Source: Nitratireductor sp. XY-223
GTDB lineage: Bacteria; Pseudomonadota; Alphaproteobacteria; Rhizobiales; Rhizobiaceae
DNA length: 33,397 bases
Direction of reading: 5' to 3'
Assembly (NCBI RefSeq): GCF_004959855.1
Contig: NZ_SPNT01000022.1
Coordinates: 1-33,397 of the forward strand
The number at the start of each line of letters is the position of its first letter. Within the stretch, counting starts at the first letter, position 1. The notes beneath the pieces were generated by a model that searched no databases, was not told where the DNA came from, and saw only the letters and a program-made list of their open reading frames with translations. A program made the position numbers and the translations under genes. Shown here piece by piece: positions 7,616-29,908 of the stretch.

Positions 7616-7620
7616 TAAGT

Positions 7621-12355: not shown

Positions 12356-12359
12356 GCCA

Positions 12360-13249: not shown

Positions 13250-14776
13250 TCAATGCGGACCGGCCATTCCGAGCCGCTCATACTGCTCCGGAGGGCATCC
13301 CTCCTCATCCATCAGCTTTCGGGCAAGCGCCAGCAGGCGCTCCCTCTGCTCGGGCTCGGAATCCCACAGATTTCTCGTCTGGCCGGGGTCCTGTGCCCTG
13401 TTGTAGAGATAATTCTCGCGGGTCCGCGGATCGATTTCGATGGGAATCTTCCACATGGGCAGTGGTACGGTCGGGTCGAAATAGCCCTGGTCCACGGGTG
13501 GCTCAGGCAGCTTCCCGACCCTCCCGTCGACGGGATTGTCGACGATGAGCGGCCTGGTAATCGCGGTCGAATAGACGTAGAGCGGCTTGCCCTCGAGGGG
13601 CGCTCGGAACAGCGTCCAGTCACCGTCACAGACACAGATGCCCTGTCCGAAGGTGCCGTAAAGGATGGCGTCGCGAATATCCGCGCTTTCATTGCGAATG
13701 AGCGGCATCAGGCTCCTGCTGTGCCGGTTGGCTTCAGGCAGGTCGGCGCCGGCGGCCTCGATGACGGTGGCAAAGAGATCCACCGTCTGGGTAAGACCCG
13801 TCACGCGCCGCCCGTCTCCCTGGTGTTCCGGGTGCCAGACAATCATCGGGATATTGGCGTGGCTGTCGTAGTGCGGGTGCTGCTTGCCGAAGATGCCGCG
13901 CTCGCCGAGATCGTGGCCGTGGTCGGTGGTGAAGATGACCATGGTGTCGCCCCACAGCGACAGTTCATCCATCTTGTCCATGAACCTGCCGAACCACACA
14001 TCAGCCATGGTCGCCTTGCCGAGATATTGCGAGCGGAGAAACGCCAGTTCCTCCTCGCTCGTCTGGGCCATGAAGGCGTCGAGGTCGTCATAAACCTGGT
14101 AGGGCGGCCAAATATTGAAATCGTCCTTGCTCTTGCCGGTCCGGTTATACATCGAGCCATAGGGTTCCGGTGTGTCGAAAGGCTCATGGACATCGAAGGA
14201 TTCGATCTGAAGGAAAAACGGCCCCTTTGACGCGTTGTCGGCCAGCCAATCGGCCGCCTTGCTGAAAACCTTCGCCGGAAAATAGTCCTCCTCGTCTTTG
14301 AAATCGCGGACATTGGCATAATACTGGCCGACATATTGACGGGCGCGAAATTCAGCCATCTTCTCCACCCATTTTGGGAGCGGTTCTGCATCCGGCACCC
14401 GCCAGGCGTCGTATTCATGGCCACGGATGAACTCAATCGACCTGAAGCCCTGAAGGTAACCGTTCGCCTCTTCTTCCCAGTAATGATAGTGATCGGTGAC
14501 GATGCCCGTATTGAAGCCCTTGGCGCCGATTATTGACGGCAGGCGCGGATCAAAGACTTCCAGCGAGCCCCAGGGACGCCAGAGGAATTCCTTGCGGCCG
14601 GCGAATATCTCGCGGCGTGCCGGCATGCACGGCAGGCTGGCGATGAAGTGGTTTTCGAAAATATGCGACTTCTCGCCAAACCTGTCGAGAAACGGCGTGC
14701 GACACTCGGACTGGGGATTGAACATCTGCAGGCAGTGCTTGTTCAGACTGTCCACCAGAATCAGGATGATGTTCAT
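13250..14776 (-). CDS. FGly-type sulfatase (arylsulfatase/phosphonate monoester hydrolase-like), cytoplasmic
   Basis: The ATG at 14776 with GGAGGC 5 nt upstream gives 508 residues; a frame extension to 14818 has no such signal. The formylglycine motif C-M-P-A-R (Cys50, Pro52, Arg54) shows that the Cys must be oxidised by a formylglycine-generating enzyme or equivalent, not seen in this window. Metal-site residues include Asp9 (in VDSLN), and Asp285-His286 in TTDHGHDLGERG; VHEP at 197 onward is typical of this alkaline-phosphatase-superfamily branch. The second Asp of the usual N-terminal DD pair is Ser here. No signal peptide is present, so it hydrolyses an imported sulfate ester in the cytoplasm, in line with the divergent importer. 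Confidence 0.88.
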   Translation of the reverse strand: MNIILILVDSLNKHCLQMFNPQSECRTPFLDRFGEKSHIFENHFIASLPCMPARREIFAGRKEFLWRPWGSLEVFDPRLPSIIGAKGFNTGIVTDHYHYWEEEANGYLQGFRSIEFIRGHEYDAWRVPDAEPLPKWVEKMAEFRARQYVGQYYANVRDFKDEEDYFPAKVFSKAADWLADNASKGPFFLQIESFDVHEPFDTPEPYGSMYNRTGKSKDDFNIWPPYQVYDDLDAFMAQTSEEELAFLRSQYLGKATMADVWFGRFMDKMDELSLWGDTMVIFTTDHGHDLGERGIFGKQHPHYDSHANIPMIVWHPEHQGDGRRVTGLTQTVDLFATVIEAAGADLPEANRHSRSLMPLIRNESADIRDAILYGTFGQGICVCDGDWTLFRAPLEGKPLYVYSTAITRPLIVDNPVDGRVGKLPEPPVDQGYFDPTVPLPMWKIPIEIDPRTRENYLYNRAQDPGQTRNLWDSEPEQRERLLALARKLMDEEGCPPEQYERLGMAGPH

Positions 14777-14831
14777 GTTTGCCTCCGGGAATACGCCGAC
14801 CTGCCTTGGCTTAACCACAAGGCGATCATAT

Positions 14832-14941: not shown

Positions 14942-15976
14942 ATGTCATCTGCTTTGAAGAGCAAAATCAGCCGCCGCACGGCGCTCAAAAGCGTCGCTGG
15001 CGCAGGCGCCGCACTTGCCGCACCCAGTTTCTTTATTGGAAAGGCCCACGCGGCCAATGAAAAGCTGACAATCGGCATCATCCCGGCCTATTCGTTCGGG
15101 ATCTACTGGCTGGTACAGGATCAGGGTTTTGCGCCCGGAGTCGACATGGAATTCCGTGTTTTCCCCTCCGGCCCCCCTGCCATTGAAGCCATGGTGGGCG
15201 GCTCGGTCGAGGCCATCACGGTCGGTTCCGTTCCGCCGCTCGCAGCGATGGCGCGCAAGGTCGCCGATTTCCGCGAAATCTCCGTTTGCGGGGACGCCAG
15301 CGGCCTCTTCACCATCGTCGGAGCGCCCGGCCTCAAATCCCTTTCCGACCTCGAAGGTAAGCGGATCGCCGTGACCTCCGGCTCGAATTTCGACTTTTTC
15401 CTCGACGTTGCCCTCCGGCAATCCGGTCTCGGCGATATGCCACACACCCGCGTGAACATGGAGCCTATCGATGCCCAGGCTGCCCTGATCGCCGGTGCCG
15501 TGGATGCGACGGTTCCGCTTGCGACCTCCCGCAAGCTGATCTTCGAAAAGCTTCCGGACGCCAGTCTGCTCGCCGAGGGAGCGCAGATGCCGATCGACAA
15601 GCGACCGAGTATCATGGACGTGTTCATGACGACTCAGCCGGTTCTCGACGCCAAGCAGGAGGCGTTGAAACAGGTGGTCGCCGCCTTCCACAAGGAAGGT
15701 GTCGGCATGCTGCGCGACAATAACGACGAAGTGGTCAACCGCATGGTGGTCTGGCAGGAAGGGATCGGCCGCGCCGGCGTCAAGCCGGAAGAGGTCGAGC
15801 CGCTGCTCAACGGCTATTTCTACTTCGACACAAACGAGATCAAGGATGTCTATTCGAAGAACATCCTCAAGAACTCGAAAAAAGTGCAGTCGGAATTCCT
15901 GGTCAATGCGGGCAAGCTTGAAAACGTGCCCGATCTCGACGCGCTGATCTCCGATCAGATTGTCAAGCAAATCTGA
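14942..15976 (+). CDS. ABC transporter substrate-binding protein, NMT1/TauA/SsuA-like
   Basis: This 344-residue periplasmic protein has a twin-arginine signal (SRRTALK at 10-16, hydrophobic stretch, probable cleavage after AHA at 37). The mature part resembles the NMT1/SsuA/TauA class: an early IGIIPAYSFGIYWL ligand lobe, then GVDMEFRVFPSGPPAIEAM and DLEGKRIAVTSGSNFDFFL. Such proteins bind taurine, alkanesulfonates, nitrate, thiamine precursors or aromatic acids. The strong ribosome binding site GGGAGGAAGGA precedes the ATG. It is first in a three-gene importer operon divergent from the sulfatase. A sulfate ester or sulfonate ligand is the contextual guess. Confidence 0.88.
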   Translation: MSSALKSKISRRTALKSVAGAGAALAAPSFFIGKAHAANEKLTIGIIPAYSFGIYWLVQDQGFAPGVDMEFRVFPSGPPAIEAMVGGSVEAITVGSVPPLAAMARKVADFREISVCGDASGLFTIVGAPGLKSLSDLEGKRIAVTSGSNFDFFLDVALRQSGLGDMPHTRVNMEPIDAQAALIAGAVDATVPLATSRKLIFEKLPDASLLAEGAQMPIDKRPSIMDVFMTTQPVLDAKQEALKQVVAAFHKEGVGMLRDNNDEVVNRMVVWQEGIGRAGVKPEEVEPLLNGYFYFDTNEIKDVYSKNILKNSKKVQSEFLVNAGKLENVPDLDALISDQIVKQI

Positions 15977-15981
15977 CGACC

Positions 15982-16758
15982 ATGGAGATTCTGGCGAAAG
16001 TTACGACGGGGCGCTTCGGTTTGGGCGCCCTGTCCGTGGCGGTTGTGTTCATCCTCTATATCATCGTGACCAACCAGCCCGACAACAACCCGGCGCTGCT
16101 GCCGCCGCTCACGGACATCTTCAACTCGTTTGTCACCAACGTGACATCCGGAACACTCTTTACGGCCCTCGCGGCGAGCCTCTTCCGGATCTTCATGGGC
16201 TTTTTCATCGGCACCACGCTGGCGCTGATCCTCGGATGCCTGATCGGCTGGTACAAGGTGATCGAATACCTGTTCGATCCGCTGATCGAGGCGCTTCGGC
16301 CGATCCCGCCGCTGGCCTATATCCCGATCATCATCATCTGGTTCGGGATCGGTGAGTTCAGCCGGGTGCTGATCATCACCATCGCCTGTTTCATGGTCTG
16401 CGTCGTCAACGTCATTGCCGGGATGAAAAATGTCCCCCAGGTCTATGTGGACGCCGCCGCCACCATGGGCGCCTCGCGTTTCCAGGTGTTCAGGACCGTG
16501 GCGGTTCCGGCAGCGACGCCCTTCATCATCACCGGCTACCGGATTGCGCTTGCCGCCGCCTGGACGACGCTGGTCGCATCCGAACTCCTCGCCGCGCAGA
16601 ACGGCCTCGGTTTCCTGCTTCAGGAAGGCCGCCGCTACTTCCTGACGGATCAGGTGATGATGATCATTGTCATCATCGGGGCCTGCGCGTTCATCATGGA
16701 CCGCATTTTCCGCAAGATCCAGGCGCGGCTGATGCAATGGTCGGAGGCACGCGAATAA
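15982..16758 (+). CDS. ABC transporter permease, TauC/SsuC-like
   Basis: The 258-residue membrane protein has about six hydrophobic segments and the binding-protein-dependent transport domain loop, with the EAA-type stretch YVDAAATMGASRFQVFRTVAVP at about 152-173. This loop contacts the ATPase. The start lies 5 nt after the binding-protein stop, and the stop overlaps the ATPase start (TAATG), so the three subunits are translated together. Confidence 0.9.
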   Translation: MEILAKVTTGRFGLGALSVAVVFILYIIVTNQPDNNPALLPPLTDIFNSFVTNVTSGTLFTALAASLFRIFMGFFIGTTLALILGCLIGWYKVIEYLFDPLIEALRPIPPLAYIPIIIIWFGIGEFSRVLIITIACFMVCVVNVIAGMKNVPQVYVDAAATMGASRFQVFRTVAVPAATPFIITGYRIALAAAWTTLVASELLAAQNGLGFLLQEGRRYFLTDQVMMIIVIIGACAFIMDRIFRKIQARLMQWSEARE

Positions 16759-17513
16759 TGCCGGAGATCCTCGTCGACAAACTCACGCACACCTTCGGCA
16801 AGGGCGGCCCGAACCCGCTGACAGTGCTTGAAGACATCAACCTGAAATTCGAGTCGGGCAGTTTCTGTTCCATTGTCGGAACGTCCGGCTGCGGAAAATC
16901 GACCCTGCTGAAAATGATGGCCGGCCTGTTCGAGCCCTCGGACGGACAGATGACCCTTGATGGCGACATCATCAGGGGGACCGACAGGCGCAGGGGCATG
17001 GTGTTCCAGCAGGATGCCGTCTTTCCCTGGATGACGGTGTCGCGCAATATTTCCTACGGCCCGCGCCTCAGGGGCGCGAGCCGGGAGGAGCAGGCGGAAA
17101 TCGAAACCAAATGGGTCGATATGGTCGGCCTGAAGGGTTTCGAGGACCGGTGGCCGCGCGAATTGTCCGGCGGCATGCGCAAACGTGTCGACATCGGCAG
17201 GGTCTACGCAAACGATCCCGACGTACTGCTCATGGACGAGCCGTTCGGGGCACTGGACGCGCAGACCAAGGAGCGCATGCAGGCCGACCTGCTGGAGACC
17301 TGGCGGCAGTCGAAGAAGACGGTCATTTTCGTGACACACGATCTGGAAGAGGCGATATTCCTCTCCGACAAGATCATCGTGATGTCGGCGCGCCCGGGCC
17401 GAATCCGGCACATTGAAGAAGTATCGCTGCCGCGCCCGAGAACCGACGAAATGCGCCTGACCGACGAGTTCATCCAGATCAAGCGCAAGCTCTGGGCCAT
17501 GCTGGAGCACTGA
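16758..17513 (+). CDS. ABC transporter ATP-binding protein, TauB/SsuB-like
   Basis: The ATG at 16758 overlaps the permease stop (TAATG), has GGAGG about 10 nt upstream and gives 251 residues; the frame extends seven codons upstream to 16737. Walker A is GTSGCGKS (41-48), the signature LSGGM (136-140, followed by RKRV where RQRV is usual), Walker B VLLMDEP (156-162) and the H-loop His194. The FQQDAVFPWMTV Q-loop context is typical for nitrate/sulfonate/taurine importers. It drives uptake together with the two preceding gene products. Confidence 0.9.
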   Translation: MPEILVDKLTHTFGKGGPNPLTVLEDINLKFESGSFCSIVGTSGCGKSTLLKMMAGLFEPSDGQMTLDGDIIRGTDRRRGMVFQQDAVFPWMTVSRNISYGPRLRGASREEQAEIETKWVDMVGLKGFEDRWPRELSGGMRKRVDIGRVYANDPDVLLMDEPFGALDAQTKERMQADLLETWRQSKKTVIFVTHDLEEAIFLSDKIIVMSARPGRIRHIEEVSLPRPRTDEMRLTDEFIQIKRKLWAMLEH

Positions 17514-17525
17514 GGCCGCGATCCC

Positions 17526-17544
17526 GGCGGGGCAACTTCCCGCC
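17526..17544 (+). terminator. Weak stem-loop between the importer ATPase and the MFS gene
   Basis: GGCGGG (17526-17531) pairs with CCCGCC (17539-17544) around a 7-nt loop, 12 nt after the ATPase stop. No U-tract follows. It may lower transcription into the MFS gene rather than stop it. Confidence 0.3.
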
Positions 17545-17597
17545 AACCATGATAATGTCGCCTCGGTAATTGGTCTTGCACTGTTTCGAGGTGACGC

Positions 17598-18839
17598 GTG
17601 GCATCGAGCAGCATTCCTTCAAACGGCTCCGAACCGTTTGAGGCAGAACGACGATGGAGTGTTCTGGCAATCACCGCAGTCGCGGTCGTCCTGTCGCTGA
17701 TGAGCTGGTTTTCCGCGACCGCCGTCATCAATGATATTTCGCGCGCCTGGGAATTGGATACGGCCACAGCCGGCTGGCTGACCAATGCGGTGCAGCTGGG
17801 ATTCGTGACGGGCGCCATCCTGTCCAGCCTGCTGGCGATTTCCGACATTGTCGCCCTGCCCCGGCTGATGGCCGGGTCGGCGCTTCTCGCAGGGATTTCA
17901 AGTGCCGTTCTTCTGATCGAACCGGGTTTTGCGGGTGCCGTTTTAGCGCGCTTTGTCACCGGAGCGGCGCTTGCCGGGGTCTATCCGCCGGCGATGAAAT
18001 TCATCGCCACGTGGTTCAAAACCGGACGCGGCATTGCCATGGGCGCCATGGTCGGCGCGGTGACCCTTGGTTCGGCCGGTCCGCATCTGGTGCGGGCCGT
18101 CGGACAGGTCCTGCCCTGGGAAACCGTGATCACCGTCACGGCCATCTGCTGTTTATTGTCAGCGGTTGTTTTCCTTGTTCTGCGCGAAGGTCCGCACGGA
18201 TTTGCGCGGGCCCGGGTCGACCCGAGGCAGGTGGCGGCGATCATCCGCAACCGCCCGGTGATGCTGGCCAATTTCGGCTATTTCGGCCACATGTGGGAAC
18301 TCTATGCCATGTGGGGATGGATTCTCGCCTATGTGGTCGCCGCCTCGGATTCGGGCGCCTATTTCGGCAACGCGTCCTTGCTGGCCTTCGCGGTCGTCGC
18401 GATGGGCGCACCGGGCTGCCTGCTGGGCGGCTTCTTGTCGGACATGATCGGACGCTGCTACACGACGGCCCTGATGATGGCGGTGTCGGGCCTGTGTGCG
18501 CTGGCGGTCGGCTTCCTGTTTGACGGTCCGGCCGCCCTCTTCCTGATCGTCGCATTGATCTGGGGGCTGACCGTCGTCGCCGATTCCGCCCAGTTCTCGG
18601 CAGCCGTCAGCGAACTCTCGGACGCCAGTTACGTGGGATCGTCGCTGGCCTTCCAGATGGGCGTGGGATTCGCCATCACCACAATCACCATATGGCTGGT
18701 GCCGGTGATCGCGGATTTCGCCGGAAGCTGGCGATGGACCTTCCTCGTTCTCGTGCCCGGCCCGTTCCTTGGCGTCGTCAGCATGCTTGCCCTCAGGCGC
18801 CTGCCGGAGGCTGCGAAAATCGCGAACGGCCTGAGATAA
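17598..18839 (+). CDS. Major facilitator superfamily transporter
   Basis: The 413-residue inner-membrane protein has about 12 transmembrane helices. MFS features include a conserved GRG segment after helix 6 (FKTGRGIAMGAMVGAVTLGSA) and a GxLSDMIGR-type loop (GGFLSDMIGRCY) between helices. The start is GTG with GAGGTGA at the correct distance. It lies 84 nt beyond the TauB-like ATPase in the same direction and may belong to the sulfatase/importer module as an additional importer or as an exporter of a product. Substrate is not predictable. The convergent acyl-CoA synthetase gene follows. Confidence 0.82.
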   Translation: MASSSIPSNGSEPFEAERRWSVLAITAVAVVLSLMSWFSATAVINDISRAWELDTATAGWLTNAVQLGFVTGAILSSLLAISDIVALPRLMAGSALLAGISSAVLLIEPGFAGAVLARFVTGAALAGVYPPAMKFIATWFKTGRGIAMGAMVGAVTLGSAGPHLVRAVGQVLPWETVITVTAICCLLSAVVFLVLREGPHGFARARVDPRQVAAIIRNRPVMLANFGYFGHMWELYAMWGWILAYVVAASDSGAYFGNASLLAFAVVAMGAPGCLLGGFLSDMIGRCYTTALMMAVSGLCALAVGFLFDGPAALFLIVALIWGLTVVADSAQFSAAVSELSDASYVGSSLAFQMGVGFAITTITIWLVPVIADFAGSWRWTFLVLVPGPFLGVVSMLALRRLPEAAKIANGLR

Positions 18840-18896: not shown

Positions 18897-20660
18897 TCAC
18901 TCGCTGAAGCCGTTCTCGACCATCCAGTCGCGCATGGCGAATTTCTGCGGTTTGCCGGTGACGGTCATCGGCAGTTCGTCGACGATGCGGATGTGCTTGG
19001 GGATCTTGTAGTGCGCGATCTTTGTGTCGCAGAACCGGCGTATATCGTCGGCCTGCAGATCAGCCCCGTCGCCCGGCACGATCCAGGCCCCGACGACTTC
19101 GCCCAGCGCGCTGTCGGGAATGCCGAAAACCTGCACCTCCTTGACCGCCGGATGGCTGAACAGGAAGTCCTCGATTTCCGCGGGATAGATGTTCTCACCG
19201 CCGCGGATGATCATGTCCTTCACCCGGCCGACAATCGCGCAATATCCCTCCTCGTCCAGTGTCGCGAGATCGCCGGTACGCATCCAGCCGTCGACAATGG
19301 ACTCAGATGTCTTGTCCTCGTCGTCCCAGTAGCCGCGCATGACGGAGTAACCGCGGGTGCAAAGCTCGCCCTCGGCGCCCGCCGGGACGATGGCGCCCGC
19401 CTCGTCGATGATCTTGACCTCCAGGTTCGGGTGGATGCGCCCCACCGTCGTGACCCTCTTTTCGATCGGATCGTTAACGAAACTCTGAAAGGAAATCGGC
19501 GAGGTTTCCGTCATCCCGTAGCCGATGGTCACCTGCGACATGTTCATCTCGTCGATGACCCGCCGCATCACCTCGATCGGGCATGGTGCGCCGGCCATCA
19601 TGCCGGTGCGCAACCGGGACACGTCATACGATCCGTTGCCGAGTTCCTCGAGCATGGCGACGAACATGGTCGGCACGCCGAACAACGCCGTGCACCGGTC
19701 CTTCGAGACGGCTTCGAGTGTGTCGGGAGCCGTGAACGCCTCCCCCGGAAATACCATCGCGGCCCCTTTGCTGACGCAGCCGAGCACGCCCAGCACCATG
19801 CCGAAGCAATGGTAAAGCGGGACCGGAATGCACAGCCGGTCCCGCTCGGTGAACTGCATGCGCTCGGCGGTAAAACGGGCATTGTTGACGATGTTGTAGT
19901 GGGAAAGCGTCGCCCCTTTGGGCGATCCGGTCGTGCCGGATGTAAACTGGATGTTTATCGGCTCATCCGGGTCAAGGGACCGGGCGATCGTGTCGAGCCG
20001 CAATTGCTGCGCCGGCCCGCCAAGCGACTGGACCTCCTTGAACGTGAATGCGCCGGGCTGCGGATCGTCGGACATGACGATCACGTGCCTGAGTTGCGGC
20101 AATCGGGCTGCCGCGAGCCGGCCCGGCTCGCAGTCATCCAGTTCCGGCGCAAGGTTTTTCAGCATCTCGACATAGTTGGAGGACTTGAATGCCTGCGCCA
20201 GGACGAGCGCGCGGCAGCCGACCTTGTTCAGCGCATATTCGAGCTCCGATACCCGGTAGGCGGGATTGATGTTGACAAGGATGAGCCCGATGCGGGCGGT
20301 CGCAAACTGGGTCAGCACCCATTCCAGCCTGTTGGGCGACCAGATGCCCAGCCGGTCGCCCTTCTGAAGCCCGAGGGCCAGCAGCCCGGACGCCATCTCA
20401 TCCACCATCCGGTCGAGATCGTAATAGGTGAACGTCCTTGCCTCGTTGGGAAACACGACGGCGTCGCGCGGACCGTGCCGGGTGACCGCCTCGCGAAGCA
20501 GGTCCGGAATGGTGATGTGTCTGAGCGCCGGCCAATCCGCGCCGCGAACATAGGAGCGGCCGTCCTGCGGCGCGAGGTCCGCCGGGTTGCTGTCGGAATC
20601 TGCCTTGACGCCATTTCCGGTCTTCAGCAGTCCGGCCAGGCTCTCGTTGAGTATGGACAT
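18897..20660 (-). CDS. AMP-binding acyl-CoA synthetase
   Basis: The ATG at 20660, preceded by GAGGAGG 5 nt upstream, gives 587 residues; the frame goes up to 20708 but would overlap the amidase. ANL-superfamily motifs are complete: the P-loop TSGTTGSPKG (240-249), GYGMTETSP (380-388), WMRTGD ending at 464 and the adenylation lysine 570 in TGKPQK. The enzyme activates a carboxylic acid with ATP and CoA. It lies 10 nt after the ABC-amidase fusion gene, with the ribosome binding site between them, so the acid released by the amidase is the natural candidate substrate. It resembles medium/long-chain fatty acid ligases, but specificity is open. Confidence 0.9.
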   Translation of the reverse strand: MSILNESLAGLLKTGNGVKADSDSNPADLAPQDGRSYVRGADWPALRHITIPDLLREAVTRHGPRDAVVFPNEARTFTYYDLDRMVDEMASGLLALGLQKGDRLGIWSPNRLEWVLTQFATARIGLILVNINPAYRVSELEYALNKVGCRALVLAQAFKSSNYVEMLKNLAPELDDCEPGRLAAARLPQLRHVIVMSDDPQPGAFTFKEVQSLGGPAQQLRLDTIARSLDPDEPINIQFTSGTTGSPKGATLSHYNIVNNARFTAERMQFTERDRLCIPVPLYHCFGMVLGVLGCVSKGAAMVFPGEAFTAPDTLEAVSKDRCTALFGVPTMFVAMLEELGNGSYDVSRLRTGMMAGAPCPIEVMRRVIDEMNMSQVTIGYGMTETSPISFQSFVNDPIEKRVTTVGRIHPNLEVKIIDEAGAIVPAGAEGELCTRGYSVMRGYWDDEDKTSESIVDGWMRTGDLATLDEEGYCAIVGRVKDMIIRGGENIYPAEIEDFLFSHPAVKEVQVFGIPDSALGEVVGAWIVPGDGADLQADDIRRFCDTKIAHYKIPKHIRIVDELPMTVTGKPQKFAMRDWMVENGFSE

Positions 20661-20670
20661 GGCTTCCTCC

Positions 20671-23052
20671 TCACAGCGTTCGCCAGTCGACGCTTTGCTC
20701 GAATGCATGCGCGGCCTGGTAGATCGTCATCTCGCCGTAGTGCGGTCCCACGAGCATCATGCCGATCGGCAGTCCCTCGCTGAGACCGCACGGCACGGTC
20801 ATGGCCGGCAGTCCGCCATTGAAGGGCGCGGTATTGCCGATCATTTCAAAGGCACGCTGCACGTAGAGGCTGATGGAACAGTCCGCCGGCGGTATCTTCT
20901 GCGGTTTCATCGGCAGGGTCGGCATCACCAGGAGATCGTGCCTGGCAAACGCCTCCAGGTACTTTTCATGCACCTTGCGCATCAGGTTCTGCGCCTTGCC
21001 GTAGTAGCGCCCCCGGTACTGGTTCTGAAAATATTCTCCGAGAAACATGCAGACTTTCAGCGAATGGGAGAGCTCATCGGCGCGATGCCTCCAGCCGGCC
21101 GCCTGGTCGATCATGGAGGGCAGAAACAGGCCGCGGTAGTTCGTGCCGCCGCAATTGCCGTGCATCATGTGATCCTGCAATCCCTCGACCGTGATCGCCG
21201 TCCACAGGTCCGCGGCGAAATAGTGCTCCTCGACGGAAACCTCCTCCACGCGGGCACCGAGCTCGCGGAACCGGTCCAGCGCCGCCTCGACCTTGCCGTC
21301 CACATCGGCTTCGCTTTCCGGCCGGCCGAAGCCCTCCTTTAGGACCCCGATGCGCAGGCCCGAACAGCCCCGGTTCAGGGCCTCCGTGTAGCGGTAGACC
21401 TTCGGCGCCCTCTGCCGGGGGTCGAGTCCGTCCTCGCCGGCCAGCACCTCGAGGAACAGCGCATTGTCGGCGACATTGCCGGTGACCGGCCCCACGTGAT
21501 CGATGGTCTGCTCGACCGGCATGACCCCGGTATAGGGCACAAGACCGTGGGTCGGCTTCATGCCGTAGACGCCGCAGCTCGACGAAGGGATGCGCACGGA
21601 TCCGCCCTGATCGCCGGCGATCGCCATGTCCACTTCGCCGGCGGCCACCAGGGCAGCCGAACCGCTGGAAGATCCGCCGGCCATGTATCCGTGCTTCCAG
21701 GGGTTGTGCACCGGCCCGGTCGCATTGGTGTGCGATCCGCCGGATATGCAGAGGTTCTCGCAATGCGCCTTTCCCGCCACGATGCCGCCGGCGTCGAGAA
21801 TGCGCGTCACGATGGTCGCGTCGATCTCCGGGACATAACCTTCCATGATCGAACTGCCGTTCATCATCGGCACGCCGGCGACACAGACCGTGTCCTTCAG
21901 CGCGATGCGCTTGCCGCGCAGAGGGCCGTCCGGCGCACCCTTGATATCGGTCTTGTAGAACCAGGCGTTGAGCGGGTTTTCGGACGGTGACGGCCGATAG
22001 CCGGGCGCCCTCGGATAACGCACCTCGGGAAGATAGTCGGGCGCCGCGTCGATACGGTCATAGCACTGGATGTAGGGCTCCATGATCTCGCGGTATTCCT
22101 CGATCTCCTGGTCCGACAAGTGCATTCCGAAGCGCTGCGCCATCTCGTGCATCTGGGAAAGGCTTGGGCGTTTTATGGTCATGTTCGTCACCGATGGAAT
22201 TGTCCGGTCGGACCGGTCGTTTGCCGGGGCCGACCGTGTCGCGGTCGCATTGGAACTGCTGGATGCCGAGGGTTTTAATGGCGTTCCCGGCGGGCCGTCC
22301 GCCGCGCCGCGCCGCGTTGAACGGGCTGCGCCGAAGCCCAGGAAACGGTCCACCTTGGCGCGGTCGGTCAGGTCCTGTTTCGAGAGTTCGCCGGTCAGGC
22401 GCCCGCGCTCGAGCACGACGACGCGATCCGACAGGTCGGCGATGAAATCAAAGTTCTGCTCGACCAGCAGGACCGACAGCCCGCGCTTCTTTCGCAGGTC
22501 GTCGAGGGTTTCCGACATCTCCTCGATGATCGAGGGCTGGATGCCTTCGGTGGGCTCGTCCAGCAGCAGGAATTCGGGATCGGCCATCAGGCACCTGGCC
22601 AGCGCGAGCAGTTGCTGCTCGCCGCCGGAGAGCGTGCCGCCCTCGCGGTCCAGGAGGCGCACCAGCCTCGGGAAATGATCCAGCACCGCGTCGAACGTCT
22701 CGTCCTCGCCGCCCTGCCCGTGATCGTGGTAGGCAAAACGCATATTGTCCCGGACCGTGAGCTGCGGAAAGATGCCGCGGCCCTGCGGAACGTAGCCGAT
22801 GCCGAGTTCCACCCGCCTGTTCGGGGGCCAGCCGGTAATGTCCTCGCCGCGAAAATGCACGGAACCGCCGGTCGGCTTCAGGAAACCCATCAGCGTCTTG
22901 AGCAGTGTCGATTTGCCCATGCCGTTGTGGCCGAGGATGCCGACCACCTGGTTCTCGCCGACCGCAAGCTCGATGCCGTGCAGCACGGGAACCCTGCCGT
23001 AGCCGCCCGACAGGCCCTTGATGGCGAGAACCGTGTTTGCTTCGTCCGCCAT
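20671..23052 (-). CDS. Fusion protein: LivF/UrtE-like ABC ATPase + amidase-signature hydrolase
   Basis: One uninterrupted frame of 793 residues starts at the ATG at 23052 (1 nt beyond the LivG stop, AGAAGGG upstream). Residues 1-242 are a complete LivF-type ATPase: Walker A GHNGMGKS (41-48), signature LSGGEQQ (141-147), Walker B FLLLDEP (161-167) and VEQN. About 50 Ser/Ala/Thr-rich linker residues follow. From Met291 (ATG at 22182), a full amidase-signature enzyme begins with Lys386, cis-Ser461 (GGSSSGS) and nucleophile Ser485 (DQGGSVRIP). The 75- and 24-residue spacings equal those of the FAAH triad. It would couple import of an amide with its hydrolysis. The ATG at 22182 with GGTGA upstream may also allow separate amidase synthesis. 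A sequencing error that removed a LivF stop cannot be excluded. Confidence 0.85.
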   Translation of the reverse strand: MADEANTVLAIKGLSGGYGRVPVLHGIELAVGENQVVGILGHNGMGKSTLLKTLMGFLKPTGGSVHFRGEDITGWPPNRRVELGIGYVPQGRGIFPQLTVRDNMRFAYHDHGQGGEDETFDAVLDHFPRLVRLLDREGGTLSGGEQQLLALARCLMADPEFLLLDEPTEGIQPSIIEEMSETLDDLRKKRGLSVLLVEQNFDFIADLSDRVVVLERGRLTGELSKQDLTDRAKVDRFLGFGAARSTRRGAADGPPGTPLKPSASSSSNATATRSAPANDRSDRTIPSVTNMTIKRPSLSQMHEMAQRFGMHLSDQEIEEYREIMEPYIQCYDRIDAAPDYLPEVRYPRAPGYRPSPSENPLNAWFYKTDIKGAPDGPLRGKRIALKDTVCVAGVPMMNGSSIMEGYVPEIDATIVTRILDAGGIVAGKAHCENLCISGGSHTNATGPVHNPWKHGYMAGGSSSGSAALVAAGEVDMAIAGDQGGSVRIPSSSCGVYGMKPTHGLVPYTGVMPVEQTIDHVGPVTGNVADNALFLEVLAGEDGLDPRQRAPKVYRYTEALNRGCSGLRIGVLKEGFGRPESEADVDGKVEAALDRFRELGARVEEVSVEEHYFAADLWTAITVEGLQDHMMHGNCGGTNYRGLFLPSMIDQAAGWRHRADELSHSLKVCMFLGEYFQNQYRGRYYGKAQNLMRKVHEKYLEAFARHDLLVMPTLPMKPQKIPPADCSISLYVQRAFEMIGNTAPFNGGLPAMTVPCGLSEGLPIGMMLVGPHYGEMTIYQAAHAFEQSVDWRTL

Positions 23053-23053: not shown

Positions 23054-23770
23054 TCAGCCCTTCTTGCCCAGATAGACACGGCGCACGGTCTCATCGGACA
23101 TAACCTTGTCGACGTGGTCTTCCATCAGCACGGACCCCTGGTGAAACACCGTGACCGTGGAGGCGATGGAGCGGATGAACTGCATGTCGTGCTCGACGAT
23201 GATGACGGCGGCGCTGCGGTTGAGTTCACGGATGATGGCGACCATGCGCTCGACGTCGCCCGCGGACATTCCAGCCGCCGGCTCGTCGAGCAGGACAAGC
23301 CAGGGATCGCCGACGGCGACGATGCCGAGCTCCACCTGCTGACGCTCTCCATGGGCCAGCCGGCCGACATCCGCGGCCGCTATGGCGTTCAGCTCCAGCC
23401 TTTCGATCATGTCGGCGGTCTTGCGGTTCGCTTCGACGACCGGGTGCCGCCGCCGCGCGGCCAGCCAGATGTTCTCCCTCACGGTCAGACCGTCCATGAC
23501 GCTCGGCACCTGTGTCTTCACCCCGACGCCAAGCGATGCGATTTCGTGCGGATGCCATCCGGTGGTTTCTTCATGGCGCATGAATATGCGCCCGTCCGAA
23601 GGCGTCAGGAGACCGGTGATGCATTTGAAGAAGGTGCTCTTGCCGGCACCGTTCGGCCCGATCAGGCAACGCAGCTCGCGGGCGGCAAGCCGGAAGCTGA
23701 CATTGTCGGCGGCGACGACGCCACCGAACCGCATGGTCAGGTTCTCGGTCTCGAGCACGGTCTCAGCCAT
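23054..23770 (-). CDS. ABC transporter ATP-binding protein, LivG/UrtD-like
   Basis: The 238-residue ATPase has Walker A GPNGAGKS (38-45), Q-loop Gln87, a degenerate signature LAHGERQ (138-144) as often seen in UrtD/LivG proteins, Walker B LVLLDEP (158-164) and H-loop His194. With the LivF-type domain encoded next, it forms the heterodimeric motor of a hydrophobic-amino-acid/urea/amide importer. Its start overlaps the LivM gene by 8 nt. The RxLRCLIGPNGAGKS context is closer to the urea/amide branch than to leucine transport, which I judge from memory only. Confidence 0.9.
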   Translation of the reverse strand: MAETVLETENLTMRFGGVVAADNVSFRLAARELRCLIGPNGAGKSTFFKCITGLLTPSDGRIFMRHEETTGWHPHEIASLGVGVKTQVPSVMDGLTVRENIWLAARRRHPVVEANRKTADMIERLELNAIAAADVGRLAHGERQQVELGIVAVGDPWLVLLDEPAAGMSAGDVERMVAIIRELNRSAAVIIVEHDMQFIRSIASTVTVFHQGSVLMEDHVDKVMSDETVRRVYLGKKG

Positions 23771-24791
23771 TGGCGGCTCTCCGCACCCGAAGCCGGCGCG
23801 ACGGCCTGTTTCGCCGCGTCAGCACCCGGCCCGCGACGGAAACAATGGCCGGAACAAGCCCCCGCGGCAGGAACAGCACGAACAGGACGAGAATGAGCCC
23901 GGTGATCAGCGTGTTGTCCACCAGGGATTGCTGGCCGAGAAGGAATTTGAGGTAGGAAAGACCGGCGGCGCCGACCATCGGCCCGATGCGGGTGCCAAGG
24001 CCGCCGACAATGCACCAGATGATGATTTCCGCGCTTTGCGGAAGGCTGAACAGGCCGGGCGTCACAATCTCCGCCCAGTTGGCGAAGAAGGCGCCTGAAA
24101 GACCGGCGATCGCGGCGCCGACGGTAAACAGGACCGTCTTCCTCGCCCTGACGTCGTAGCCCATCAGCGACATGCGGGTCTCGCTCTCGCGAATACCGAC
24201 GGCAATGCGGCCGAAGCTGCTGCCGAGCAGCCAGGTGACCAGCAGGAAGACGAGGAGCAAGGCCACCGCCACCACGTAATAAAGGCTGTCTCCCCACACG
24301 TAGAAATCGGGGTAGCCCGGAACGTTCAGCGTCTGGAATCCGGGGATCCCGTTGAAGCCGCCGAGCCGCGCCGAGCCGATCATGTATTCGGGACCGGCTG
24401 TGGAATTCATGAACCTGTAGAAGATCAGCGTGACCACCAGCGTGATGACGCCGAGATAGACATCGGCCAGCCGGCCGTAGAACATCATCGCGCCGAGGAT
24501 GGCCGCAAACGCCGCCGGAACAATGATGGCGATCAGCATGGGTATCGTGCTTTCGCCGAAATTGATCGCCGAAATGGCGTAGGCATAGGCCCCGAGCCCG
24601 AAAAACGCCGCCTGGCCGAAACACAGGATGCCGCCGAACCCCCAGATGAGGCCGAGGCTGAGGCCGAGCATGGCGTAGACCAGCAGCACGGTCAGCGTGT
24701 AGGTGTCGATGGCGGACGGCAGCGCGACGATGAGCGCGACGCCGACGGCGACGATCCAGAGATATTCACGCCACTGATTGCCCCGCATCAC
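23763..24791 (-). CDS. ABC transporter permease, LivM/UrtC-like
   Basis: This 342-residue membrane protein with 8-10 hydrophobic helices shows LivM features: GLIWGFGGILCFGQAAFFGLGAY near 48-69 and the IRESETRMSLMGYD coupling segment. The longest frame starts with GTG at 24791, overlapping the LivH stop (GTGA); the next codon is ATG at 24788. It forms the channel with the LivH-like subunit. The C-terminus has an Arg-rich tail (TRRNRPSRRLRVRRAANG) of unknown meaning. Confidence 0.9.
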   Translation of the reverse strand: MMRGNQWREYLWIVAVGVALIVALPSAIDTYTLTVLLVYAMLGLSLGLIWGFGGILCFGQAAFFGLGAYAYAISAINFGESTIPMLIAIIVPAAFAAILGAMMFYGRLADVYLGVITLVVTLIFYRFMNSTAGPEYMIGSARLGGFNGIPGFQTLNVPGYPDFYVWGDSLYYVVAVALLLVFLLVTWLLGSSFGRIAVGIRESETRMSLMGYDVRARKTVLFTVGAAIAGLSGAFFANWAEIVTPGLFSLPQSAEIIIWCIVGGLGTRIGPMVGAAGLSYLKFLLGQQSLVDNTLITGLILVLFVLFLPRGLVPAIVSVAGRVLTRRNRPSRRLRVRRAANG

Positions 24792-25654
24792 AACCTGCCC
24801 CTGAAAAAGCGCGTCGTGATGCCCTGCGGCAACACGCGCAGCAGAATGACCGCCGAAATCAGCAGGGCCACCTCGCCGACGACCGGCGAAAGGGCAAATG
24901 CAAAGGCCTGGTTGACGAGCCCGAAAAATCCGGCGCTGCTGAGCAGGCCGGCCACCAGGGCCGGTCCGCCGGCAATGACGGTGATGAAAGCCTTGGCGAT
25001 ATACGCGCCGCCGGAGGACGGCACGAGACCCACGAGCGGCGCCAGGACAGCGCCCGCCAGGCCCGACAGCGCCGAGCCGACGAAAAAGGTCGCCATGTAG
25101 ACGCGGTCCGGACTGTAGCCCAGCGCCGCGGCCATGTCGGCCCGTTGCATGGTGCCGCGCGCGATGAGACCGATGCGTGTCCCCTTCAGCACCGCATACA
25201 TGGCGATGACCAGGATGATCGAGACCAGGATGATGAAGAAATTATAACCGTTGACCTGGTATCCGCCGATCGGAAAGCCGGGGATCGGCGTTGAGATGCC
25301 GGTCGTCGTGTTGCCGAATATCATGGTCACGCCGCCGACAAAGAACAGGCTCAGGCCCCAGGTGGCCAGCATGGTGTCGACCAGACGGCCGTAGAGGTGG
25401 CGGATGACCAGCCGCTCGACGATCAGGCCGATCGCACCGACTACGAGCGGCGCAATCAGGATCATCGCCAGGAAGATGTTGACGCCCGCCTTGACGGCGG
25501 TGATCGTCACGTACCCGCCGAGCATCATGAACTCGCCGTGCGCGAGATTGATGACCTTCATCATGCCGAAAACGATCGCGAGGCCGGCGCTGATGAGCAC
25601 CAGCGACGCGATCGCGTAGACGATTTCCACCAGTATGACGGCTGCCAGGTCCAT
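24788..25654 (-). CDS. ABC transporter permease, LivH/UrtB-like
   Basis: I start at the ATG at 25654 (288 residues), where family similarity begins; the frame extends upstream to a TTG at 25690. Typical LivH sequence GLAIVFGMMKVINLAHGEFMMLGGY lies near the N-terminus, and the coupling segment RADMAAALGYSPDRVY sits in the second half. There are about eight transmembrane helices. A 98-nt gap with a strong stem-loop separates it from the binding-protein gene upstream. Confidence 0.9.
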   Translation of the reverse strand: MDLAAVILVEIVYAIASLVLISAGLAIVFGMMKVINLAHGEFMMLGGYVTITAVKAGVNIFLAMILIAPLVVGAIGLIVERLVIRHLYGRLVDTMLATWGLSLFFVGGVTMIFGNTTTGISTPIPGFPIGGYQVNGYNFFIILVSIILVIAMYAVLKGTRIGLIARGTMQRADMAAALGYSPDRVYMATFFVGSALSGLAGAVLAPLVGLVPSSGGAYIAKAFITVIAGGPALVAGLLSSAGFFGLVNQAFAFALSPVVGEVALLISAVILLRVLPQGITTRFFRGRL

Positions 25655-25704
25655 GTCTTTGCCAATTCCGAACGTTCGCGGGGAATGCAATGCCCCGAGG
25701 GAAT

Positions 25705-25752: not shown

Positions 25753-26976
25753 TCAGATCTTGATTTCGTACTGCTTGTTGTCGTCGGGATTGGCGACGAG
25801 ATCGCACACCGCCTGCGTATCGATCGGCGGGCGTTGCGGCAGGGTCTCGACGACGTTCATGCCCTGGTCCTCGACAACCATCAGATGCACGTCCAGGGTG
25901 GCGTGGTGCGTCTTCGGGTCCACGGTGACCGTCCCGGCGGGGCCGTCGATCGACAATCCCGTCTCGAGGGCCGCGATGACGGCGTCGCGGTCGGTGCTGC
26001 CGGCCTTTTTCACCGCTTCGGCCCACATCTTGACACCCTGGTAGTTGGATACCGCGATTTCGTGGATCGCGCTGCTGTCGCCGTAGGCCTCGGCCCAGGC
26101 TTCCTTGAACGCCTTGTTGGCGGGCGTGTCCAGCTCCTGGCTGTAGTTGTAGGCAACCATGATGCCGTTGCCCTCTTCCGGGGTCAGGACCTTGTGCTCG
26201 TTGCCGACGCCCATCGTGGTCGAGGCGAGCGGTATCTTGTCCTTCATGCCGGCAGCCGCCCACTGGCGGAAGAACGACAGGTGCGCGCCGCCAACCAGGG
26301 GCGCGATCACCAGATCGGGCGCAGCTCCCTGGATCTTCGCGATGGTCGAGCCGAAATCGGCGACGTCCAGCGGGAAGAAATCGACGGCGACGACTTCACC
26401 GCCGTTTTCCTCGACATATTTCTGGATCCAGTTGGCCGTGATCTGGCCGTAGTTGTAGTCGGCGGCGAGGATATAGACCTTGTTGCCGCCCGCCCTTTCC
26501 ATGGCAAAGGGCACAAGCGCCTCGACCTGCTGCGCCGGCGTGACGCCGTTGATGAAGATGTTGCGGTCGCAGACGCCGCCCTCGTAGAGGACGTTGTAGA
26601 AATACAGCGTCTTGGCCTTGCGCATGGTCTGCCGGATGGCTTCGCGGGACGCCGACAGGATCCCGCCGTGCACGATATCCGCCTTGTCCCTGCGCACCAG
26701 CTGCTGACCGAACTGGGTGTAGAGCGCCATGTCGGACTGCGTATCGTAGCTGACGATCTCGATCTGCTGACCGTTGAGGCCGCCGGCGTCGTTGATCTCC
26801 TTGACGGCCAGCCGCATGGCCATGTCCATGGGCTTTCCGTAAGCGTCGAAAATGCCGGACGTGTCGAGGATGGAGCCGAGCTTGATGGTGTCGGCTGCGG
26901 CGCCGAGCCGCGGCACGGCCATTGTGCCGGCAAGCGCTGCCGACGCGGACAGGAACGCGCGTCTGTTGATGGTCAT
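25753..26976 (-). CDS. ABC transporter substrate-binding protein, amide/urea/branched-chain type (FmdD/UrtA-like)
   Basis: The 407-residue protein carries a twin-arginine-type signal (NRRAFLS at 4-10, cleavage near residue 27) and a type I periplasmic fold of the Peripla_BP_5/6 class: IKLGSILDTSGIFDAYG at the N-terminus, then YILAADYNYGQITANWIQKY. It belongs to the LivJ/UrtA/FmdD/AmiC group. Ligands in the group are branched-chain amino acids, urea and short-chain amides; the neighbouring amidase argues for an amide. Its start overlaps the SPFH gene stop (ATGA). Confidence 0.88.
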   Translation of the reverse strand: MTINRRAFLSASAALAGTMAVPRLGAAADTIKLGSILDTSGIFDAYGKPMDMAMRLAVKEINDAGGLNGQQIEIVSYDTQSDMALYTQFGQQLVRRDKADIVHGGILSASREAIRQTMRKAKTLYFYNVLYEGGVCDRNIFINGVTPAQQVEALVPFAMERAGGNKVYILAADYNYGQITANWIQKYVEENGGEVVAVDFFPLDVADFGSTIAKIQGAAPDLVIAPLVGGAHLSFFRQWAAAGMKDKIPLASTTMGVGNEHKVLTPEEGNGIMVAYNYSQELDTPANKAFKEAWAEAYGDSSAIHEIAVSNYQGVKMWAEAVKKAGSTDRDAVIAALETGLSIDGPAGTVTVDPKTHHATLDVHLMVVEDQGMNVVETLPQRPPIDTQAVCDLVANPDDNKQYEIKI

Positions 26977-28589
26977 TTCTTACCTCCCGTTTCACCCTTT
27001 TCGTTGGATTTGGATCGGATGCGATTGGCGTAGTCGGCGGTCCGGCCGGCCAGGTTGGCGTCGAAATCGATACCGATTTCCTCGCCCATCTGCTTCATGG
27101 CCGGCAGCCGCACCGCCATGCCGAGGATCTGGTCCATGGCGGCGCCGAACGCGCCGTTGATGCCCTCGCCGTCGGCGAACCCGCCCTGTGCGACGCCGCC
27201 GATCTGATTGATCTTGATGGAATCGATCTTTTCGACCGGCTTCATCATCTGGGTCATGATGTCGGGCATGCGGTCCAGCCGCCGTTCCTCGAGGCGCATC
27301 GAGATGATTGCCTCGCTCAGGCCATTCTCCGCGGCGATGAGCGCGGCCTGGCCGTCGGCCTCGGATTCCAGGCGCAGTTTTTCCGCCTTCGCGGCGATCT
27401 CGGCCGCCTTCGCATCGGCCGACGCCTTGGCCAGCATGGTTTCGTTGTCGGATTTGGACCGGGCGTCCTCGACCGAAATCTCCCTGTCGACCTTCATCAT
27501 CGCGATCGCCTTTTCGCGCTTGGCGACGGCGGTTTCCTTGTCGGTCTGGACGGATTCGGCGGCCAGCAGCACCTTCGATCGCGACGCCTCCTCCGCAGCC
27601 TTGGCTTCGGCCTCGTCGGCGCGCTTCTGCGCAAGCCGCATGGCGTTTTCGATCTTGGTTTCTTCCAGTGTCAGGATCGCCGCCATCTCCTTGCGGCGCA
27701 GTTCCTCGTCATTGGCGATCTTCACCGCGTCGATTTCCAGTTGCTTGACCAGCGTGGCTTTCTCGGACGTGCGGTCCGCTTCGGTCCGGATCTCCGCCGA
27801 CTTGGCCTCGGCCTCGGCCTGCAGGCGCGACAGGTGCTCTCGCTGGGCGATCTCCGCCTCGCGTTCGGCGCGCTCGATGTCGAGGCGGCGCTGCGCCTGC
27901 GCCAGCTGGCTCTCGCGAACGGCGATATCGGCTTCGGTTTCGATCCGCACCCGCTCCTTGCGGTTGTCCGCCACCAGACCGGCGAGCTTTCGCATGCCTT
28001 CGGAATTGAACGCGTTGTTTTCGTCAAGGCCCGCGAAACTGCCCTGGTCGACCCGCAGCAGCACGGCGGAGACGAGCGTCAGCCCGAGCGCCTCTATGCG
28101 GCGCTCGACGACCTGCGCCACCTGCTCCGAGAACGCCTCGCGTTCGCGGTGGATGTCGTCCAGCGAACGGGCCGCCGCGGCATCCTGCATCGCCGCGGCC
28201 AGCTGGCCGTGCAGCAGTTCCTCGACCGCTTCGCCGCCCCGCGCGATGCGCGATCCGAGCGCCTGGGCGGCGCGAGCGACACCGTCCCGGGTCGGCTGGA
28301 CGCGGACCTCGATTTCCATTTCCGCGTCGGCCCGCAAGCGGTCGCCGGTCAGCAGGGAATGCTGACCCGAGCGGTCCAGCCGGACGGTGATCGCGCCCAT
28401 CGAGACCTTCTGGATCTGGTGCAGGATCGGCAGCGCGAGGCAGCCGCCGTCGATGACGGTCTTTTGCCCGCCGAGACCGGTGCGGACGAGCGACAGCTCC
28501 CGTGTCGCCTTGGCGAAATACCTGTGCAAGAACCAGATGACGACCGCGACGGCAATCGCAAAAATCAGCAATGAGATTATCCACGCCAC
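26973..28589 (-). CDS. SPFH-domain, flotillin-like membrane-anchored protein
   Basis: I choose the GTG at 28589 (GGGGAG 6 nt upstream), which makes the protein begin directly with a membrane helix (AWIISLLIFAIAVAVVIWFL); the frame extends 16 codons further to 28637. The 538 residues comprise the N-terminal anchor, an SPFH/band-7 domain (about 30-200), a very long charged Ala/Glu/Arg/Lys-rich coiled coil (about 205-450) and a C-terminal region ending in GETGGKK. This order matches flotillins (FloT, YqiK), which organise membrane microdomains. It is the first gene of the amide-transport operon and overlaps the binding-protein start, an unusual partner for an ABC importer. A scaffold for the transporter-amidase is inference. 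Confidence 0.85.
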   Translation of the reverse strand: MAWIISLLIFAIAVAVVIWFLHRYFAKATRELSLVRTGLGGQKTVIDGGCLALPILHQIQKVSMGAITVRLDRSGQHSLLTGDRLRADAEMEIEVRVQPTRDGVARAAQALGSRIARGGEAVEELLHGQLAAAMQDAAAARSLDDIHREREAFSEQVAQVVERRIEALGLTLVSAVLLRVDQGSFAGLDENNAFNSEGMRKLAGLVADNRKERVRIETEADIAVRESQLAQAQRRLDIERAEREAEIAQREHLSRLQAEAEAKSAEIRTEADRTSEKATLVKQLEIDAVKIANDEELRRKEMAAILTLEETKIENAMRLAQKRADEAEAKAAEEASRSKVLLAAESVQTDKETAVAKREKAIAMMKVDREISVEDARSKSDNETMLAKASADAKAAEIAAKAEKLRLESEADGQAALIAAENGLSEAIISMRLEERRLDRMPDIMTQMMKPVEKIDSIKINQIGGVAQGGFADGEGINGAFGAAMDQILGMAVRLPAMKQMGEEIGIDFDANLAGRTADYANRIRSKSNEKGETGGKK

Positions 28590-28640
28590 GGCGCACTCCC
28601 CAGTCCCGGGAACGGCCGTGAAACGGTCGCAGGCCACTCC

Positions 28641-28709: not shown

Positions 28710-29852
28710 TTATTGAATTTTTTCGAACTCATCGAAAACAACACCATTTGCGCGGGCCAGATAGACCGGTGCGGTATTGCGCGAATTCGAGATGTAAATC
28801 GACTGTCTGGCGCTCTTGTAGGAGACCGGGCAGGAAGACGATTCGCGCGCACCGCGCCACGTGCCGCCGGCCTCTTCCATCAGGCTCGACAGAAACTGGA
28901 ATCCTTCATAGGTCGACTGGCCGAGCGCGTTGAGCATGGGTGCCCGGTCCCTGTGCAGCGTGTGGTATTTTTCGCGGAAATTCGCGTTCTCCGCGGTGCT
29001 CAGCGCGGCGAAATAAGAGGCGGATGAAAACAGCCTTTGCAGGTTTTCCTCGCCGCTTGCCAGCAGACCGTTTTCCTCCATCGCGCAGGACAGGCGGACG
29101 ATCCTCTTGTGCAACTCGAGCGCCCCGAAGATCCGGTTGAAATCGACGGCGTCCTGCCCGACCAGCGATACCAGCACGCCGTCGGCGCCTGACCGGCCGA
29201 TCTGGTCCACATAGTCCTCGAGATTGCCGCAGGAAAACGGCAAGTATTTCTCGAAGACCAGCTCCGCGCCGAGCGAGGCGATCTTGCCCTTGGCGTAGTT
29301 GTGCGAGGTCCGCGGCCAGACATAGTCGTTGCCGATCAACGCCCACTTCTTCAGCCTGAACCTGCGGTAAAGGTGCTCCATCGCGGGGCCGAGCTGCTTG
29401 GGCGGTGTGTCGCCGATCGCGAAAACGCCGCTCGAGTGCTCGCCGCCTTCGTAGAGCGGCGTATAGACATACGGGATGCGGCCCTGGACGACCTTCGTCA
29501 GGCGCTGGCGCACCGCGCTTATGTGCATGCCGACGATCGCATCGATCGATCCGTTTTCGATCATCGTATGAACGAGAACGTCCACCGGCGTTTCGGATTC
29601 GATGGCGGAATCGATCATCACCATCTGCACCGGGCGCCCGGCGATGCCCGACAGGCGGTTGAGCTCCTGAACGGCGACCTGGGCGCTGGCGATGCACGAC
29701 GGCGCCCACAGCCCGGCCGATCCACACAGCGGTATCAGCAGCGCCACCTTGTATGCGCGCTGGTCCAGCAGGTCCTCGTGGTCGTCGTCGAGCGTGTTGA
29801 CTGTGTGCGGCAGTCCGGTCTTTTGTGCCGCGACCCCCAGTTCAAGTCGCAT
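28710..29852 (-). CDS. AmiC-like cytoplasmic amide/ligand-binding protein
   Basis: The ATG at 29852 gives 380 residues; the frame continues to a TTG at 29906, but that start would lie inside the conserved promoter block at 29887-29908. There is no signal peptide. After an acidic leader, the type I binding fold starts at VALLIPLCGSAGLWAPSC, followed by ELNRLSGIAGRPVQ, YTPLYEGGEHSSGVF and IGNDYVWPRTSHNY, closely recalling Pseudomonas AmiC (TPYEGFEYSPN, GSDYIYPRESN). AmiC is a cytoplasmic amide sensor that restrains the antiterminator AmiR. No AmiR-like gene is visible here, so the partner may be the MarR or AraC regulator. Alternatively it is a second binding protein for the importer. Confidence 0.8.
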   Translation of the reverse strand: MRLELGVAAQKTGLPHTVNTLDDDHEDLLDQRAYKVALLIPLCGSAGLWAPSCIASAQVAVQELNRLSGIAGRPVQMVMIDSAIESETPVDVLVHTMIENGSIDAIVGMHISAVRQRLTKVVQGRIPYVYTPLYEGGEHSSGVFAIGDTPPKQLGPAMEHLYRRFRLKKWALIGNDYVWPRTSHNYAKGKIASLGAELVFEKYLPFSCGNLEDYVDQIGRSGADGVLVSLVGQDAVDFNRIFGALELHKRIVRLSCAMEENGLLASGEENLQRLFSSASYFAALSTAENANFREKYHTLHRDRAPMLNALGQSTYEGFQFLSSLMEEAGGTWRGARESSSCPVSYKSARQSIYISNSRNTAPVYLARANGVVFDEFEKIQ

Positions 29853-29886
29853 TTCAACCGTCTTTCTTTGTGTTCCCGCTCTATGG

Positions 29887-29908
29887 GAATTGAAATTCCT
29901 TTCCAAGT
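29887..29908. promoter_or_regulatory. Shared regulatory block in the amiC-like/marR divergent promoter
   Basis: This 22-bp block matches 28668-28689 in the SPFH promoter at 18 of 22 positions, in the same orientation. It contains the inverted repeat GGAATT-GA-AATTCC (29886-29899) and a rightward TTGAAA (29890-29895) 17 bp before TAATTT (29913-29918), a possible marR promoter. The leftward TTGGAA may serve the amiC-like gene. MarR-family regulators bind such dyads and often control their own promoter. Confidence 0.5.

Follow-up and report, generated by a model that had tools for sequence, protein, structure and literature searches.

Gene content of the locus

The stretch of DNA analysed here, referred to as the window, comprises 33,397 nucleotides of Nitratireductor sp. 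XY-223 (contig NZ_SPNT01000022.1). On its minus strand it carries a cassette of eight genes with a recurrent order, namely a second binding protein, a flotillin, UrtA, UrtB, UrtC, UrtD, a gene in which a UrtE-type ATPase is joined to an amidase, and an acyl-CoA ligase. The coordinates of these genes and of the parts of the fusion gene are given in Table 1. The fusion gene begins with an ATG at 23052, which is preceded by the sequence AAGAAGG, and ends with a TGA at 20673-20671, giving a product of 86.4 kDa; the plus strand of 20671-23052 contains stops, and the open frame is that of the minus strand.

Table 1. Coordinates in the window of the cassette genes and of the features within the fusion gene
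Feature	Coordinates	Strand	Remarks
AMP-binding acyl-CoA ligase	18897..20708	-	downstream cassette gene; 38-base overlap with the fusion gene in the listed frame, whose start is provisional
UrtE-type ATPase~amidase fusion gene	20671..23052	-	793 aa, one open frame
Amidase domain, residues 291-793	20671..22182	-	includes Lys386/Ser461/Ser485
Internal ATG, putative start of free amidase	22180..22182	-	503 aa, 55.1 kDa
GGTGA element, putative ribosome-binding site	22188..22192	-	-10 to -6 of the internal ATG
Linker, residues 237-290	22183..22344	-	basic, predicted disordered (240-290)
ATPase domain, residues 1-236	22345..23052	-	Walker A, signature LSGGE and Walker B present
UrtD-type ATPase	23054..23770	-	stops one base before the ATG of the fusion gene
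UrtC-type permease	23763..24791	-
UrtB-type permease	24788..25690	-
UrtA-type substrate-binding protein	25753..26976	-
Flotillin-like SPFH protein (Band_7 + Flot)	26973..28637	-	554 aa as open frame; cassette member
Second substrate-binding protein (UrtA-like)	28710..29906	-	cassette member; precedes flotillin

The flotillin-like protein scored well above the cut-offs of both of its families (Band_7, 46.5 bits against 23.6; Flot, 100.2 bits against 27), and a hydrophobic segment was recognised by eye at its N-terminus. With regard to the two UrtA-like proteins, the second may be a further binding protein of the importer or may serve as a sensor.

Domains and catalytic motifs of the fusion protein

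The original prediction described a single polypeptide with two complete domains, and this description is borne out by Pfam, which placed ABC_tran at residues 24-168 and Amidase (301 bits) at residues 369-776 of the 793-residue frame. The NCBIfam model PRK07235 matched residues 291-792 with 766.5 bits against a cut-off of 545, and since the match spans positions 1 to 505 of 506 of the model, the amidase half is full length, including an N-terminal part of its own. By its sequence, this half is a member of the amidase signature family (PF01425, PRK07235), and it is predicted to hydrolyse amides. The catalytic motifs had also been proposed to be intact. Lys386, Ser461 and Ser485, which we take to be the Ser-Ser-Lys catalytic triad of the amidase signature family, are invariant in all 49 fusions that were aligned from the 91 fused loci described below, and the same is true of the key positions in Walker A, Walker B and the signature motif.

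The ATPase half had been regarded as LivF-type; this assignment has to be revised, as among the NCBIfam models UrtE (TIGR03410) is closest with 262.5 bits and LivF is second with 159 bits. The UrtE score nevertheless falls short of the equivalog threshold of 285.8 bits, and the UrtA, UrtB, UrtC and UrtD homologues likewise lie under their urea equivalog cut-offs. Membership in the urea-transporter equivalogs was rejected, all five subunits being below the cut-offs.

Residues 295-786 have their nearest solved structures, judged by sequence, in 3a1k and 3a1i (E 3e-132), and residues 6-236 in 1ji0. The first two represent the amidase of Rhodococcus sp. N-771, whose chain of 521 residues lacks an ATPase half. 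The AlphaFold model of the fusion has a mean pLDDT of 64.5, with values of 76-93 over most of the ATPase, while the amidase core was poorly modelled from the alignment used and the packing of the domains is uninterpretable.

Distribution and origin of the fusion

When a single genome of each species was scanned, 102 relatives were obtained, of which the best 80 were kept and the other 22 stand outside the count. Homologues with the same two-domain order proved to be the rule, since 79 of these best 80 carry ATPase and amidase in a single frame; the remaining locus (L083) is interrupted by a contig end ahead of the ATPase, and two loci counted among the 79 (L058 and L081) run off the contig end inside the amidase. 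Within the genus of the window, 8 genomes were searched and the fusion was found in 3 including the window's own (2 of the 7 others), while in a fourth (G001) UrtE and amidase form an unfused pair. At the level of the class, the Alphaproteobacteria, an amidase was detected at an E-value of 1e-120 or better in 52 of 385 genomes; 11 of these 52, again counting the window's own, are confirmed as fused and one more (G192) is interrupted by a contig end.

Sixty flanked stretches were gathered from class and phylum search matches and from two loci in genomes of the genus. A total of 145 amidase places in 143 sources was examined, keeping amidases that had at least 42 % identity and more than about 380 aligned residues. 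The fusion occurs at 91 of these places (88 distinct), 20 have a separate UrtE-like gene directly upstream of the amidase, 30 are without an adjacent UrtE and 4 lie at contig edges. These locus counts retain repeats; the analyses of the internal start given below use the 88 distinct fused loci.

In an amidase tree of 77 rows built by a quick method, the 28 fused rows make up one side of a branch with an SH-aLRT of 98; fused rows with at least 73 % identity save a chosen few, rows at contig edges, rows with less than 440 residues and repeats had been left out. The closest unfused amidases reach an identity of 61 %, and the most distant fused amidase has 59 %. The idea would have failed if homologous loci always showed two genes, however, unfused neighbours are confined to other branches of the amidase tree. 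Judged by these sequences, the fusion is a feature of a whole lineage and no one-off. No reversion was seen among the 145 amidase places. Since the unfused relatives often lie directly behind a separate UrtE gene, the fusion is probably an old, once-only merger of neighbouring genes.

Amongst plasmid records, 53 matched and 3 of them carry at least 80 % of the fusion. It is present on two circular Sulfitobacter plasmids, one of them from Sulfitobacter alexandrii, as one CDS named 'amidase' in the PLSDB annotation, with the same cassette around it, and this label hides the ATPase half.

Association with flotillin and ligase

Considering loci with more than 7.5 kb upstream, and requiring at least 30 % identity, more than 80 bits and the same strand, the flotillin turned up in each of the 79 fused loci, in none of the 13 unfused adjacent loci and in none of the 17 loci without an adjacent UrtE. 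A similar picture was obtained for the ligase at a criterion of at least 40 % identity; amongst loci with room for it, it was present in 85 of 87 fused loci, 0 of 19 unfused adjacent loci and 0 of 29 loci without an adjacent UrtE. Because the fused loci form one clade, flotillin and ligase may simply mark the clade that has the fusion, and the association may then reflect one event and not many. The flotillin is fixed in the cassette, and for an ABC importer such a dedicated partner seems unusual. Neighbouring genes gave no clue to the substrate, as none of the genes beyond the cassette was shared by more than about 16 of the 84 sources when up to 8 kb per side was considered and antisense shadow frames were set aside.

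The linker and the upkeep of the fused state

The linker, which had been expected to have about 50 residues, has 54 in the window gene, with a pI of 11.7. Across fused loci its length ranges from 33 to 92 residues (median 53), and the composition is rich in Ala, Pro, Ser, Thr, Arg and Gly; both sequence and length are poorly conserved. The linker follows a nearly conserved GAARxTR stretch at the end of the ATPase. AlphaFold assigns a pLDDT of about 30 to residues 240-290, and the predicted disorder fits a flexible tether; it has no bearing on channelling.

The linker is open in all 91 fused loci (88 distinct), compared with a mean probability of 0.35 for a shuffled linker to be open, a result that holds by definition, because a locus with a stop would count as unfused, and that comes from related loci. 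No locus of the fused clade with a stop between the domains was met. An indel test with loose gap penalties on 277 linker pairs revealed no preference for the frame (623, 940 and 694 gaps with lengths of 0, 1 and 2 modulo 3, respectively). In a stricter test on 11 clean close pairs, which share sequences, 3 of 3 gaps were multiples of three, and substitutions in the same pairs numbered 26, 13 and 46 at the first, second and third bases of codons, so that 46 of 85 fell on the third base.

A probable conserved start inside the gene

The internal ATG lies exactly at 22182, where it had been pointed out as a possible start of free amidase, and it was found to bear conserved initiation signals. Amongst the 88 distinct fused loci the codon is ATG in 86, GTG in 1 and ATC in 1, although the linker upstream of it is unconserved; the unfused adjacent amidase genes start with ATG in 20 of 20 cases. 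The locus with ATC belongs to Pseudosulfitobacter koreensis (L050) and still has the GGTGA element upstream.

Conservation of the nucleotides ahead of this codon, where a GGTGA-like element lies at -10 to -6, goes beyond the encoded peptide. A G stands at -10 in 79 of the 88 loci, compared with 38.7 expected from the codon usage of each gene for the residue in question, while the codon at -12 to -10 encodes 12 residue identities over the same loci. The three bases of this codon changed 19, 21 and 7 times on the tree, a pattern matched by 0 of 484 codons in the body of the gene. Similarly, GTG accounts for 54 of the 58 valine codons at -9 to -7, where 24.2 would be expected. On the tree of the 88 loci, the sites from -10 to -6 underwent 7, 3, 11, 11 and 7 base changes, compared with 19-39 at the sites from -33 to -11.

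Pairing with the anti-Shine-Dalgarno (anti-SD) sequence has a mean energy of -6.99 at the internal start, compared with -3.42 for the rest of the gene and -8.76 for the starts of free amidases. Compared with control positions of its own gene, the internal start was within the best 5 % in 14 of 88 loci and within the best 10 % in 58 of 88 (9.7 % in the window gene); taken as an alignment column, it ranks only 20 of 515, since equally good pairing occurs at conserved motifs in other places. A core SD match of at least 4 was seen at 23 of 91 internal starts and 19 of 20 free amidase starts, and the internal ribosome site is, by this sequence measure, weaker than that of free amidase genes.

Synonymous constraint was scanned over the amidase and 11 linker codons. 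It peaks at codons -5 to +9 when 14 columns are taken together and at -11 to -2 when 10 are taken, noting that the score leans high in variable linker columns because the commonest codon is picked after the fact. For single codons within the amidase, codon 4 (AAA) ranks 1 of 495 and codon 8 ranks 3 of 495. The mean minimum free energy (MFE) of folding in 50 nt at the internal ATG is -5.5, which is the weakest of 121 offsets between -600 and +1200 (mean -13.5, sd 2.6); the corresponding means are -9.1 at the fusion's own start, -7.9 at free amidase starts and -14.9 in the linker interior. In 67 of the 88 genes at most 5 % of the body windows are as open as the internal start, and in the window gene, with -4.2 at this site, 0.7 % of positions are equally open.

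A conserved start codon, a ribosome site (the weakest of these signals), low structure and synonymous constraint are thus found at one place. They strongly indicate, as a new finding at the level of sequence comparison, that the internal ATG is a maintained translation start under selection. For this reason we propose two products, and the gene probably makes a transporter-tethered form of 86 kDa and a free amidase of 55 kDa.

Alternative explanations

An assembly error or a chance frameshift in the genome of the window can practically be dismissed; no point in its favour was found, and it is refuted by the homologues, which have the identical frame in 79 of the best 80 related loci and on circular plasmids. 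A more serious objection concerns the second product. The fusion protein might be the sole product of the gene, with the conserved nucleotides near the internal ATG reflecting either conservation of a VT(N/A)M peptide or some element of the DNA or RNA that has nothing to do with initiation. The sequence V-T-x-M is indeed common among the closer relatives and the SD match is short. Against this, the residue encoded at -12 to -10 takes 12 identities over the 88 loci although its third base is G in 79 of them, mean mRNA structure is at its minimum at the ATG among 121 offsets, and AAA is preferred at codon 4. We consider this explanation improbable.

The opposite reading is that function lies with the free amidase, the fusion being read-through that is tolerated but has no role of its own. 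Strong internal start signals and a linker that is poorly conserved in sequence and length (33-92 residues) would agree with such a reading. It is harder to reconcile with linkers that lack a stop in 91 of 91 loci at a shuffled mean probability of 0.35, even if these loci are related and a stop would have led to filing as unfused, and with the 11 clean pairs sharing sequences, in which the third base has an excess of the substitutions (46 of 85) and 3 of 3 gaps are multiples of three. On balance we hold it to be improbable as well.

Proposed function

The reading that we prefer, at a probability of roughly 0.7, is that the gene encodes the ATPase-plus-amidase subunit of an amide ABC importer, within an eight-gene cassette for amide utilisation, and that the amidase is made in two forms. 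The binding protein and the UrtBC-like permeases would import an amide, and the tethered amidase, close to the membrane, would split it into ammonia and a carboxylic acid, which as a charged molecule would be retained in the cell and converted to an acyl-CoA by the neighbouring ligase. In the original prediction, tethering to the inner face of the transporter was suggested as a way in which an amide may be cleaved on entry. Related free amidases are dimers. If this applies here, a free subunit may pair with the tethered one where the transporter has a single UrtE. Alternatively, the free form may provide extra cytosolic activity. The flotillin may gather transporter-amidase complexes in one area of the membrane.

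A more elaborate version, which we put forward speculatively and regard as unlikely, is that the two forms are made on purpose, the bound subunit recruiting a free one into a mixed dimer on each single-UrtE importer, and that the dedicated flotillin gathers these complexes into a part of the membrane in which import, hydrolysis and CoA activation would be coupled.

An importer ATPase that carries the first catabolic enzyme for its likely substrate would make the coupling of uptake and metabolism directly testable, and a maintained internal start would offer a built-in comparison of tethered and free enzyme within one gene. Additionally, through its tie to flotillin the cassette offers a defined setting for studying the contribution of bacterial flotillins to transporters.

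Relation to known systems

The nearest counterparts are the unfused UrtABCDE-like operons with a PRK07235-type amidase, which contain the same kinds of subunits and in which a UrtE-like gene directly precedes an amidase of the same family (20 of 145 places). They differ in that ATPase and amidase are encoded by two genes, the ribosome sites are stronger, and neither the flotillin (0 of 13) nor the ligase (0 of 19) was found at places with room for it.

Extra domains on ABC ATPases have precedents. Peptidase-containing ABC transporters (PCATs) are described in PMC6959990 as a hydrolase fused to an ABC transporter, with cleavage and transport coupled; they are exporters with peptidase, membrane and ATPase domains, whereas the fusion reported here joins an importer ATPase subunit to an amidase. 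In NrtC, an ATPase of the cyanobacterial nitrate importer, passages of PMC6603209 describe an additional domain as regulatory, with a putative nitrate site, whereas the additional domain of the fusion is an enzyme with its catalytic residues intact. The two examples show that a hydrolase or a further domain can be attached to an ABC ATPase. A five-gene Urt-like cluster beside amidase genes in Bradyrhizobium japonicum, according to PMC3098086, links a Urt-type transporter to amide hydrolysis; the neighbouring genes there belong to other amidase families, and the word 'fusion' is absent from that text. Among the papers listed by searches of the open-licence PMC literature, outside which most subscription journals lie, no description of an importer ATPase-amidase fusion or of the eight-gene cassette was found.

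Other genes around the cassette

On both Sulfitobacter plasmids a gene for a MarR-family regulator is divergent from the cassette (L207, 1701-2123; L208, 1695-2117). In the window, an AraC-type regulator (30662-31693, plus strand) lies near the same end of the cassette as the MarR gene of the plasmids. At 14942-18839, on the plus strand and hence the strand opposite to the cassette, the window has a second ABC importer (NMT1-type binding protein, permease and ATPase) and an MFS transporter, which adjoin the cassette. The region 3963-14818 contains genes of a sugar-type ABC importer (Peripla_BP_4, ABC_tran with two stretches and BPD_transp_2) as well as a carbohydrate kinase, a regulator with a sugar-binding domain and a sulfatase.
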